A stretch of DNA of 45,764 nt from assembly GCA_900498245.1 (NCBI GenBank), contig LS998015.1:2048473-2094236 (forward strand), written 5' to 3'. The position numbers and the translations under genes are program-made. Origin of the DNA: Candidatus Zixiibacteriota bacterium (GTDB taxonomy: Bacteria > Zixibacteria > MSB-5A5 > GN15 > PGXB01). Below, in pieces: positions 9,648-20,720 of the stretch. The first letter of the stretch is position 1. Each line of letters starts with the position of its first letter. The notes beneath the pieces were generated by a model. The model was not told where the DNA came from and searched no databases. It saw only the letters and a program-made list of their open reading frames with translations.

Positions 9648-10094
9648 CTATACGGATACCGAGACTCTTCCGGTCGGTGGTGTTATATCTAGCGCACTTT
9701 GATCATTTACAGAAGAAGGCTTTTTCCTCACCTCGTCGGCGAGCATTTTCCATCCCTCACGCACGTTTCTCAAGATATTGATGGAGCTTTCGATAGCCGC
9801 GACATCTTTTGTGGCCTGAACCAGGTTGATTTGCTCGATAACAAACGCATATAATTTGCCCAGGTTTTCGGCGACATCGCCGCCCTTTTCTTTATCGAGA
9901 GTCGCATAGAGGTGAACGATAAATTTACGCGCCTGCTCCATCGAATCATATCCGCCGGTCAGATTATTGTCCCGGTAGTTGGCGGCGGCCCGGCCCAGGT
10001 GATTGATGGCCCCGTCATAGATCGTCATGATCAATTCCGGCAGAGATTTGCCGAGAACATCCGCTGTTTGATAGCTGTCCAATTCTTTTTTCAT
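9648..10094 (-). CDS. fliS: flagellin export chaperone FliS
   Basis: Cytoplasmic four-helix-bundle chaperone that binds the flagellin C-terminus, prevents early polymerisation and delivers it to the export gate. In Bacillus it also competes with FliW for flagellin. The 148-aa protein begins with YQTADVLGKSLPELIMTIYDGAINHL, the family signature, then a conserved helix with ENLGKLYAFVIEQINLVQATKD. Its ATG overlaps the fliD stop by 4 nt (ATGA), a coupled arrangement. The C-terminal tail is slightly longer than usual. Confidence 0.93.
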   Translation of the reverse strand: MKKELDSYQTADVLGKSLPELIMTIYDGAINHLGRAAANYRDNNLTGGYDSMEQARKFIVHLYATLDKEKGGDVAENLGKLYAFVIEQINLVQATKDVAAIESSINILRNVREGWKMLADEVRKKPSSVNDQSALDITPPTGRVSVSV

Positions 10095-14840: not shown

Positions 14841-14864
14841 CTGTCATTTCCTCCTTGAAGTGAT

Positions 14865-14882
14865 TTGGGTTTCCTTACCCAA
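14865..14882 (-). promoter_or_regulatory. candidate CsrA-binding hairpin in flagellin leader
   Basis: On the mRNA-like strand, TTGGGT-AAGGAA-ACCCAA forms a 6-bp stem with a 6-nt loop that exposes GGA. About 20 nt downstream the SD AAGGAGGA gives a second GGA site. A hairpin site plus an SD site is the known architecture of CsrA targets such as Bacillus hag. csrA and fliW are in the same window. Confidence 0.7.
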
Positions 14883-14892
14883 TTCATATAAA

Positions 14893-14908
14893 ACCCGGCA
14901 TACCGGGT
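14893..14908 (-). promoter_or_regulatory. second leader hairpin upstream of flagellin
   Basis: ACCCGG-N4-CCGGGT, a 6-bp perfect stem in the flagellin 5' untranslated region, followed on the minus strand by TTTAT. It may be a structural part of the leader or a weak attenuator; the short T-run argues against a full terminator. Confidence 0.35.
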
Positions 14909-15021
14909 CACATCCGATGTCACAATTCCTATTAGACTAAAGAATAATCCTTTTTACTTATGCACCTCCCCTTTATGATTTTATTTCAAGCCTAATTATG
15001 GCATCATTATTCATAATTCCA

Positions 15022-15048
15022 TAATCGGCATAAAAGGACAAAACTTAA
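15022..15048 (-). promoter_or_regulatory. sigma28 (FliA-type) promoter of flagellin
   Basis: On the minus strand TTAAGTTT-N11-GCCGATTA. This matches TAAAGTTT-N11-GCCGATAA at 7/8 and 7/8 positions with exact spacing. It gives a leader of roughly 175 nt before the flagellin ATG, carrying the two hairpins above. Confidence 0.85.
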
Positions 15049-15097: not shown

Positions 15098-17755
15098 TTA
15101 AGTGATTGCCGGCTGTTCTGTTAGCCCTTTAATCCGCTCCCCGGCCAGTTTATTATCGGGATCGAGTTTCAAAATACGCTCATAGCCGATCAGGGCGGAA
15201 TCGACATGGCCCTGATGAAAATAACACTCAGAAATACCCAAAAGCCCCTCTATATTTTCCGGCCGTTCGGATAAAAACTTCTCATAATGAATTATGGCCG
15301 TACTATAATCCTGCTTGTGACGATATAAGGCGCCGATAGCCAGTTCAATTTCAGTATCGCCGGGCGCCACGGACCGATATCTGTTAAGCAACTCCAGCGC
15401 CTCATCGGCACGATTCAAGTGCATTTTTGTGAGCCCAAGATTTCTGAAAACGGCGGCCGGGGGTAATGATGTCGCCAGGGCCCTGTTATACAGACTCTCG
15501 GCGTTGTGATAATCGCCGGTCTTAAAATAGCAGTTGCCGGCATCGATCAGGGCATCGGCATCATTCGGATTACTTTCCAAATATTTGTTGAGAGGTCTTA
15601 AGGAATCGCTATAAAGACCCCCGTCATAATAGGCCCGCGCCAGAAGACGTCGACCGTGATCATAATCCGGCTTAATCTTAAGAAGTTCATTGAACAGATT
15701 GATGGCACTATTGAAATCAAGAATCCGGGCATAAAAGCAACCGGCCCGCTCAAAAACTTCCGGCATTCCCTTCGTTATTTCAAGAGAACGGACGACGCAA
15801 TTTTCGGCCTCCGCCCTATCGTTCGTGCCGCCATAATACTCGGCCAGATAAATATATGCCAGATCGGAATTGGGGTGCTGCGCCAATTCCCGGTCGATAT
15901 AACTGCGGGCCTCTTTATATTCGTGTCGGTCCAGATGAATTCGCGCCAATTTGAGGAAAGTGTCGAGATATGGTCCATGTTCTTTCACAATTTTCTCATA
16001 GTACTCAATGGCTCTGATTTCCTCGCCTTTGAGTTGGGAAATCGTGGCCAGCCCGTAATAAGCGACATGTCGCGCCCGCAAATATAAAAGAATCAAATTG
16101 GTGATTTCCTGTGATTCATCATAAGTCGATTGAACATCCAGATATTTTCTATAGTACTCTTCGGCCCGGTCAAATTGGTTTAGCCGTGTGTAGATATGGC
16201 CCAGCGACAGGATTGGATCAAGATAATCGCCTTTGACTTTAAGGGCTCTGAAGCATAATTTTTCCGCCTCTTCATAATTTTTGAGATAAATATGCGTTGT
16301 GATCTGCTGATGAAGGGACATTAAATAGGTATTGGTTCGTGCCGGCATATCAGCCGCAGACAAATCCGTCGCCCGCGACGCATGTTTCAAAATCAGCCGG
16401 GCCGTTTTCGCCTCCAATTCCTCACCCATTCCCCGAAGTAATTGCGCATAATTGAAATGGACATAAGGATCATCGGGTCGTTCCGCCAATTGTCTTTCCA
16501 GCAGTTCGCGGGAGCGAGCCATTTTTTGTTTCATTTTTTCCGGAGAAAGGCTGTACCCGTAATGTTTCAATCTGATACCGGCCCTGAGAGCCGGTTCTCC
16601 CGGCGGGAAATTCAACTGGTTATGGACAATCCCTTCATAATTATATCCCGCATCCCTTCTAAACAGCCGAAACGACGGCAAAAACGAGGTGCACTCTCCC
16701 GTCGCTCGGTTCATGTTGTAGACCGTGATGGAAACCAATCGGAAACGGTCTTGCGCGACGGCCCGGCGCAGGAGCGCAAGGTCATCTTCCACAAATTCCT
16801 CATCAGCGTCGATGATAAAAATCCAATCTCCGGTCGCTTGCGCGATCGAAAAATTGCGATGTTGGGAAAAGTCTCCCTGCCAGGGCTGTTGAAATACCTT
16901 GGCGCCGTACGAGGCGGCGATTTCCATGGTCCTATCGGTCGATCCCGTGTCGACCAGAATGATTTCGTCCACCCAATCCCGAATCGAGTGCAGGCATTGA
17001 GGCAGAAATTCCTCTTCGTTTCTGACAATCATGCAGGCCGATACAGTCGTCCGCTTCTCAAGGCTCTTCTTTAAAATACGCAGTTCCTGCACCTGCGAAC
17101 ATTTTTTTAACCCCCGTTCAATAACTTCGGCCGCCGACGCCAAATCCCGCCTAGATAAGTACAAATTGGCCAGATTTATGTAGGGGTGACAATGATCGGG
17201 TCTTAATAGAATTGAATCGTTGTAGGCTCTGACGGCGCTGTCGGACTCCCGCCGACTCTGGTAAGCCGAACCGAGGAAGTTTAAGAGAAGATGATACCTG
17301 TCATGGCTGAGCCATTTAGCCGCGACCTGCTCCTTACCGGCCAGGAGGAGCAATTCCCGATATTTCTGAGCGGCTTTTATGCATTTATCATAATCTTTCA
17401 AAATGTATTCGGCGTAGGCGATGACAAAATAAAAGTCTCCGTCGTCGGGATCAATTTCCAGTCCCTTGACAGCAAACTGCTCGGCTTCGGGAAAGCGGCC
17501 CAAAGGCGGCAGGGAAAATGACAGAAGCCGATAGAATTCAAGAAGTTCACTTCCGGAGAAATCGGTCTCATCGTTAAGATGATTGAGAATTAATTCCGCC
17601 GTCTCCTCAAAGGCATTATGGTCGAAATATTTTCTGGCGCGGCCGAGAATCGACGGTTGCTTTTTTTGGGATGGCCCTTTAGGAACTCGGCGCGAAGCGG
17701 GCGCTGCCGACTTCGCGACTTTTCGTCGCCCCATTTTTTTGCGGGTGACTTTCAT
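15098..17755 (-). CDS. TPR-glycosyltransferase (GT2), candidate flagellin glycosyltransferase
   Basis: 885 aa with a Lys/Arg-rich start (residues 1-35), TPR-like helices (about 40-230), a GT2 domain (about 235-430), and then many TPR repeats to the C-terminus (about 430-880). The GT2 core is clear: SACMIVRNEEEFL, ILVDTGSTDRTMEIA, and the DxD metal motif in IIDADEEF. The overall plan resembles SunS/TPR-type GT2 enzymes that modify proteins. It is 12 nt after fliW and is the last gene before the flagellin transcript, so flagellin O-glycosylation is a reasonable inference. Acceptor and sugar cannot be read from sequence, and a cell-envelope target is possible. Confidence 0.8.
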   Translation of the reverse strand: MKVTRKKMGRRKVAKSAAPASRRVPKGPSQKKQPSILGRARKYFDHNAFEETAELILNHLNDETDFSGSELLEFYRLLSFSLPPLGRFPEAEQFAVKGLEIDPDDGDFYFVIAYAEYILKDYDKCIKAAQKYRELLLLAGKEQVAAKWLSHDRYHLLLNFLGSAYQSRRESDSAVRAYNDSILLRPDHCHPYINLANLYLSRRDLASAAEVIERGLKKCSQVQELRILKKSLEKRTTVSACMIVRNEEEFLPQCLHSIRDWVDEIILVDTGSTDRTMEIAASYGAKVFQQPWQGDFSQHRNFSIAQATGDWIFIIDADEEFVEDDLALLRRAVAQDRFRLVSITVYNMNRATGECTSFLPSFRLFRRDAGYNYEGIVHNQLNFPPGEPALRAGIRLKHYGYSLSPEKMKQKMARSRELLERQLAERPDDPYVHFNYAQLLRGMGEELEAKTARLILKHASRATDLSAADMPARTNTYLMSLHQQITTHIYLKNYEEAEKLCFRALKVKGDYLDPILSLGHIYTRLNQFDRAEEYYRKYLDVQSTYDESQEITNLILLYLRARHVAYYGLATISQLKGEEIRAIEYYEKIVKEHGPYLDTFLKLARIHLDRHEYKEARSYIDRELAQHPNSDLAYIYLAEYYGGTNDRAEAENCVVRSLEITKGMPEVFERAGCFYARILDFNSAINLFNELLKIKPDYDHGRRLLARAYYDGGLYSDSLRPLNKYLESNPNDADALIDAGNCYFKTGDYHNAESLYNRALATSLPPAAVFRNLGLTKMHLNRADEALELLNRYRSVAPGDTEIELAIGALYRHKQDYSTAIIHYEKFLSERPENIEGLLGISECYFHQGHVDSALIGYERILKLDPDNKLAGERIKGLTEQPAIT

Positions 17756-17767
17756 TTTTGACCCGCA

Positions 17768-18253
17768 CTATCGGCTGTAAACCGGCTGTAACTCCGCATC
17801 CGCTTCGACAGGCTCTTCGGAACGCTCGATATCCGAGAGTAAATAATGTTTGACCCCGTATTCCGAATTTGCCAAGACCATTTGCTTGGCCAGCCTCGTC
17901 TCGGTATTGATTAGAAGCGGTCCCTGCAAATTGACCGTCATCTGAGACGGTTCCGATGGAATTGTGACTATTACATAAGTCTCCACGGCCCGCACATCGC
18001 TGATATGCAATTCTTCAACTTCTTTGGGATTGACTTCGATGCGATATTCGGAATAGAAGTATAGGGGGTTCACAATGATAAAGACTATGGTCGGATCATC
18101 GAGAGATTGAAACCACAGAAAAGGCGCGCAATCTTCCCGTTCCACGATACAGTACCTTTTCAGATTCTCGAAGCCGAGAATGGGTTTGGCCATAAGGACA
18201 ATTTTGTCCTCGGGGACGTCAATTTCTCCGAATTTCAATGACGTAATTCTCAT
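17768..18253 (-). CDS. fliW: flagellar assembly factor FliW
   Basis: 161-aa cytoplasmic protein that binds both flagellin and CsrA. When flagellin is exported, free FliW sequesters CsrA and relieves repression of flagellin translation. The sequence has the FliW pattern: FGEIDVPEDKIVLMAKPILGFENLKRYCIV, PFLWFQSLDDPTIVFIIVNP, VTIPSEPSQMTVNLQGPLLIN. It lies 24 nt after flgL and 12 nt before the glycosyltransferase. The csrA gene is two genes upstream of flgL, giving a compact csrA-(small ORF)-flgL-fliW cassette. Confidence 0.95.
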   Translation of the reverse strand: MRITSLKFGEIDVPEDKIVLMAKPILGFENLKRYCIVEREDCAPFLWFQSLDDPTIVFIIVNPLYFYSEYRIEVNPKEVEELHISDVRAVETYVIVTIPSEPSQMTVNLQGPLLINTETRLAKQMVLANSEYGVKHYLLSDIERSEEPVEADAELQPVYSR

Positions 18254-20405: not shown

Positions 20406-20720
20406 TTAATTGCTGGTTTCCGGCGGTTGTTTTCTTGTGGTTTTCTTATACTTAAATTCCGGCGTTTTCTTCTTCTGGGCGTCGCCGGAGATTTTGGTCT
20501 TGAGCAATTTCACAACGTTGACCAAATCCTGTTTCACCGATTTTGCCGCCTTCCGGTTTTCATTTTGTATCTTGACATAAATTTCTTCGCGGTGGACTAC
20601 AACGCGCGGCGGGGCGTCAATACCTATCCGCACCTGCCGGCCGAACACCCCCAACACGGTCACTTTTATGTCGTCCCCAATCGTTATCGATTCGCCCAAC
20701 TTCCTTGTTAGTATTAGCAA
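20406..20720 (-). CDS. csrA: carbon storage / translational regulator CsrA
   Basis: Dimeric RNA-binding protein that blocks ribosome access at GGA-containing hairpins. The first about 60 residues are canonical: [18 protein letters not shown] with the RNA-contact residues L4 and R6, and VVVHREEIY with R44. The protein is 104 aa, because a Lys-rich C-terminal tail of about 40 residues is added to the usual 60-70. The start codon is TTG, with GGAGGG 5-6 nt upstream. The leader itself has two GGA motifs (GAAGGACCACGGAGGG), so autoregulation is possible. It is co-transcribed with flgK upstream and with the small ORF, flgL and fliW downstream. Confidence 0.95.

Follow-up and report, generated by a model that had tools for sequence, protein, structure and literature searches.

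The window (the whole stretch of DNA that was analysed, 45,764 nucleotides) is part of a Zixibacteria chromosome (a MAG). A flagellar cluster on its minus strand encodes FlgK, CsrA, FlgL, FliW, an 885-aa protein, flagellin, FliD and FliS, as assigned by Pfam and NCBIfam (Table 1), and weak matches on the same strand point to FlgN- and FlgM-like proteins within the cluster. The csrA, fliW and fliS genes that the original prediction had read from the sequence are all three matched by these profiles, as is the flagellin gene. The 885-aa product, encoded between fliW and the flagellin gene, is a TPR and glycosyltransferase family 2 protein and a candidate flagellin glycosylation enzyme. A terminator-like hairpin (Table 1) suggests that the flagellin gene forms a separate transcription unit. 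A second, short flagellin-domain gene (280 aa; locus L003, G000:C1:1156895-1157323) lies in the same genome far from the cluster; by eye, its leader carries no GGA hairpin. Short flagellin-domain copies of this kind are present in most flagellated relatives.

Table 1. Features of the flagellin locus and of the flagellin leader, in window coordinates.
Feature	Coordinates	Strand	Evidence
FliS, flagellin chaperone	9648-10094	-	Pfam FliS 1.6e-23
Flagellin, 723 aa	12669-14840	-	Pfam Flagellin_N 1.8e-35, Flagellin_C 6.2e-23
Shine-Dalgarno (SD) AAGGAGGA, contains GGA; predicted CsrA site that overlaps the ribosome site	14849-14856	-	AAGGAGG present in the 69 leaders with one exception
Proximal hairpin UUGGGU-AAGGAA-ACCCAA, ANGGAN hexaloop, predicted CsrA site 1	14865-14882	-	Covariation, loop conservation
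Spacer hairpin ACCCGG-UAUG-CCGGGU, no GGA, between the two GGA elements	14893-14908	-	Predicted fold
Distal GGA element ACATCGGATGT, small hairpin with GGA in the loop, predicted second CsrA site	14910-14920	-	CATnGGA conservation
Additional GGA, ATAGGAAT	14925-14932	-	Conserved in leaders of the window's own family (f1), by reading sequences
SD-like element AAAGGGGAGGTG without an ORF behind it	14963-14974	-	GGAGG enrichment in relatives
Predicted sigma-28 (FliA-type) promoter TTAA-N15-GCCGATTA	15022-15048	-	Sequence reading
Terminator-like hairpin	15073-15057		
885-aa TPR and glycosyltransferase family 2 protein	15098-17755	-	
FliW, 161 aa, predicted CsrA antagonist	17768-18253	-	Pfam FliW 5.3e-38; PDB 5dmb_A 3.8e-23
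CsrA, 104 aa, TTG start, C-terminal extension	20406-20720	-	Pfam CsrA 1.1e-24; alignment to 2jpp, 5dmb_D

Transcription of the flagellin gene is expected to start near position 15015, which would give a leader of about 175 nt. The proximal hairpin lies exactly at the coordinates first proposed for it, with six base pairs, the loop AAGGAA and its GGA at 14874-14872, and the spacing to the SD, put at about 20 nt, was found to be 20 nt from the loop GGA to the first GGA of the SD. The distal GGA element (14920-14910), whose GGA is at 14915-14913, and the SD-like GGAGG (14974-14963), which is about 110 nt upstream of the true SD, had been missed. At the position of the spacer hairpin several relatives within f1 have other stems, as judged by eye. 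With 3 nt added on each side the proximal hairpin has a folding energy of -7.4 kcal/mol, which 4 of 200 shuffled sequences match (z -2.5); the fold of 113 nt of the window's leader is unremarkable (z -1.4). Rfam at the gathering threshold reports two tRNAs only in the window and no described RNA family over the leader. Since the fold statistics of the window sequence alone are not strong, the case against a chance hairpin rests on relatives.

A set of 69 distinct flagellin leaders was gathered from relatives, and a GGA slot was picked in them by position only, without use of pairing or complementarity. In 64 of the 69 leaders a GGA lies 17-25 nt upstream of the AAGGAGG, and the letter two places before this GGA is A in 63 of these 64, as in the loop letters ANGGAN. 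When the arms flanking the slot were exchanged between leaders, own arms scored 473 against 256.5 ± 16.5 for permuted ones (maximum 323), and 0 of 20,000 permutations reached the observed value; without the common GGGU stem (27 leaders) the scores were 196 and 85 ± 12. These permutations do not take out kinship entirely, and independence rests on the different stems of different families. Clades differ completely in the sequence of the stem and still keep its complementarity; examples of stems are UUGGGU/ACCCAA, GUCGGAUA/UAUCCGAC, GCAAACA/UGUUUGC, UGCAGACA/UGUCUGCA and ACUUC/GAAGU. When 76 distinct hairpins are placed in a single, fixed hexaloop register, the share of paired cells is 65.1%, compared with 53.4 ± 1.5 after shuffling, and the covariation score of 0.403 (shuffled, 0.220 ± 0.020) exceeds that of every version with a slid partner. 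The fixed register understates the pairing because in some families the arms pair around a loop of 5 or 7 nt instead of a hexaloop. The check named in the original prediction, conservation of hairpin and GGA loop in relatives, was therefore run with a favourable outcome: the stem covaries, and the proximal ANGGA hairpin and the SD GGA are kept in 11 of the 12 flagellated families sampled. Two leaders have the stem with GGG in place of GGA (L094, loop AAGGGC; L049, loop AGGGTA), and the proximal hairpin is absent from family f3 (three genomes). Two loci titled Ignavibacterium and Calditrichaeota (L039 and L060) carry a Zixibacteria-type flagellin and leader and are probably mislabelled MAGs.

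The association of the hairpin with GGA and with flagellin is specific. Among all 64 triplets GGA is the best loop content, with a strong stem in 56% of leaders against 3% of dinucleotide shuffles. A strong stem together with the A was found in 44 of 60 flagellin leaders and in 3 of 191 other SD-bearing ORFs, the latter being a background drawn from the same loci. Of the three background ORFs with an A-N-GGA hairpin, one is a flagellin read with another start, and a second is a FliD. The FliD-like ORF of L044 (near 3517), which has a GGA hairpin leader of the GCAACGGATGC type, is a possible second CsrA target. Among 18 loci of Planctomycetes and Armatimonadota, the planctomycete leaders L096 and L101 carry a strong GCGGC-AAGGAA-GCCGC hairpin 35-41 nt before the start. 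Most of the 18 have no such hairpin, and the claim is for this reason confined to Zixibacteria.

The leader had been described as a two-site target. The hairpin and SD sites of that description stand, and it is incomplete, as more than two GGA elements are conserved. In 56 of the 69 leaders, against 4.6 expected, the motif CATn(0-2)GGA occurs about 70 nt (approximately 60-85 nt) upstream of the SD, and its flanks match their own partner better than a swapped one (234 versus 158 ± 11; 0 of 20,000). Further upstream, 39 of the 69 leaders have [AG]GGAGG between 180 and 95 nt ahead of the SD (6.8 ± 2.5 in shuffles); when short leader ORFs were sought behind it, there was mostly no start codon at a usable distance. 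This SD-like GGAGG could be bound by CsrA, could work as a standby or decoy site, or could be an SD with a stabilising function. The two kinds of GGA hairpin are not always found together. In f3 the distal element is a perfect hexaloop, GAAC-AUGGAU-GUUC, and the proximal hairpin is lost; in f16, f17 and most of f15 the proximal hairpin is present and CATnGGA is absent. At least one GGA hairpin and the SD were seen in every leader read. FliW is present in the three genomes of f3 and CsrA was detected in at least two, so the two-site geometry is not obligatory. A link between loss of the hairpin in f3 and loss of csrA or fliW was tested and rejected, given the FliW of the f3 genomes and the CsrA of G016, G019 and G022.

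Of 132 Zixibacteria genomes, 116 gave a match to FliW and 124 a match to CsrA, and fliW and csrA belong to the same flagellar cluster. The RNA-binding residues L4 and R44 of CsrA, and N55, occur without exception in 22 CsrA sequences and are present in the CsrA of the window; the C-terminus of the 22 proteins extends 18 to 60 residues past position 62. The change N55D in Bacillus subtilis CsrA was used to remove a FliW site (PMC6529632). The window CsrA aligns with 5dmb_D over residues 2-75; the PDB entry whose FliW is matched by the window FliW also holds CsrA. Restriction of csrA and fliW to flagellated members of the phylum was tested and rejected, the pair being present in some aflagellate genomes. 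Several near-complete genomes without Flagellin_N and without FlhA have csrA next to fliW (G072, 96%; G074, 99%; G115, 98%; G133, 100%); draft genomes can miss genes, and the arrangement without flagellin repeats over several families. Adjacent csrA and fliW without a Flagellin_N or FlhA match were observed at L166 (G072), L168 (G073), L169 (G113) and L171 (G115), as well as in G074 and G133, with an FlgN-domain gene just upstream in L166 and L171. At L167 (G107, family f12) FlgN, csrA and fliW are adjacent in a genome with the flagellar export gene for FlhA and no Flagellin_N match. In the aflagellate genomes flagellin homeostasis of the known form cannot be the task of the pair, and its retention in some of them indicates a use beyond flagellin, in the form of another client or another CsrA target.

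Proteins of the RsmE/CsrA family contact ANGGAN hexaloops. In many cases a hairpin holds one such site and the SD another, and a single CsrA dimer can bridge two sites (PMC7652899). In Campylobacter, FliW relieves the repression of flaA by CsrA (PMC4894983), and CsrA control of flagellin in Borrelia is cited in the same paper. The flaA leader of Campylobacter jejuni likewise has an ANGGA hairpin followed downstream by a GGA at the ribosome site, with compensatory changes and with FliW present; the spacing of 20 nt in the window compares with an optimum of 18 nt and with 21 nt in C. jejuni flaA (PMC4894983). In contrast, the Campylobacter flaA 5'UTR is 45 nt long and its SD GGA lies inside a second stem-loop (PMC4894983), whereas the predicted leader of Zixibacteria is about 175 nt long, has the distal GGA element, and does not have its SD GGA in a clearly conserved hairpin. 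The hag system of B. subtilis is similar in its two CsrA sites (predicted here), one of them overlapping the SD, in the sigma-28-type promoter, in the grouping of csrA, fliW and flagellin, and in the extended C-terminus and N55 of CsrA. It differs in that the Zixibacteria leader has one more conserved GGA element upstream as well as an SD-like one, and in that the csrA of the window is separated from fliW by flgL. Several GGA elements with one on the SD are also known from the multi-site CsrA leaders glgC and cstA of Escherichia coli, although the genes differ; to our knowledge, Gammaproteobacteria have no FliW.

The ANGGAN preference of CsrA/RsmE, the parallel with Campylobacter, the 20-nt spacing, the CsrA residues and the presence of FliW and CsrA lead to the proposal that the flagellin leader is a CsrA target in a CsrA-FliW-flagellin homeostasis loop, which is likely. 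Binding of CsrA, repression, antagonism by FliW and the holding of FliW by flagellin are modelled on the homologous systems. The flagellin gene would be transcribed from its own sigma-28-type promoter, and a CsrA dimer would bind the proximal ANGGAN hairpin and the SD GGA about 20 nt downstream and so block the ribosome; the distal GGA element, approximately 40-55 nt further upstream, would be an additional or anchoring CsrA site. Export of flagellin would free FliW, which would then bind CsrA via the CsrA C-terminal region; CsrA bound by FliW would leave the leader and flagellin would be translated. Accumulating flagellin would hold FliW again and CsrA would repress.

Other explanations account for parts of these data. 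A chance hairpin in a single A+G-rich leader, with which the z of the longer fold in the window alone would agree, is refuted by the arm-swap and fixed-register tests, given conservation and covariation across 11 of the 12 families, and deserves practically no credence. Highly expressed mRNAs often carry 5' hairpins. The hairpin could thus stabilise the 5' end of the mRNA in a general way or act in translation standby, with no relation to CsrA and with GGA as a tolerated purine-rich loop, and the SD-like element upstream would suit such a role; an invariant ANGGA loop on freely changing stems is not needed for stabilising, however, and GGA outscores all other triplets, which makes this explanation very improbable.

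Two further alternatives accept that CsrA binds the leader. CsrA activity might be governed by sRNAs or by the abundance of CsrA itself, as Gammaproteobacteria control it by sRNAs (PMC7652899), with FliW acting as a flagellin chaperone only. Against this, fliW and csrA share the flagellar cluster and co-occur across the phylum, CsrA has kept N55 and the extended C-terminus, and fliW anti-correlates with the sRNA-controlling BarA-UvrY genes (PMC7652899), so that such control is regarded as quite unlikely. Somewhat less unlikely, and still improbable, is a leader that serves mainly as a sponge, its GGA elements titrating CsrA from other flagellar mRNAs and repression of flagellin being secondary: the GGA elements exceed the need of a single dimer, and the Campylobacter flaA leader acts in part in this way (PMC4894983). 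The most conserved geometry, however, is a hairpin some 20 nt from the SD, an arrangement that suits repression, and sponge action and repression can coexist. As a more tentative elaboration of the homeostasis loop, possible though doubtful, the leader may be a platform for several CsrA dimers on which the distal hairpin can take the place of the proximal hairpin, as in f3, and the FlgN-CsrA-FliW module of aflagellate genomes may report on a client other than flagellin.

The original prediction had placed the same homeostatic loop in a lineage far from Firmicutes. The conserved leader and the near-universal csrA and fliW bear this out in Zixibacteria; it is not the first case outside Firmicutes, since CsrA-FliW control of flagellin is established in Campylobacter. 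No paper linking this control to Zixibacteria was found in the literature searched. Compared with the two textbook cases, the Zixibacteria leader appears longer and richer in GGA elements. With the conservation, covariation and invariant loop letters obtained here, and the proteins and key CsrA residues present, the CsrA-FliW feedback on flagellin would be extended to a phylum that is uncultured and distant from both Bacillus and Campylobacter by RNA-level evidence beyond gene presence. The covarying stem round an invariant ANGGA loop amounts to a natural experiment on CsrA recognition in 11 families, and the families that have lost one site, together with the aflagellate genomes that keep CsrA and FliW, are test cases for the parts that the loop needs. 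Judged from the leaders and proteins of the phylum, Zixibacteria probably limit flagellin production by CsrA-FliW feedback, as Bacillus and Campylobacter do.
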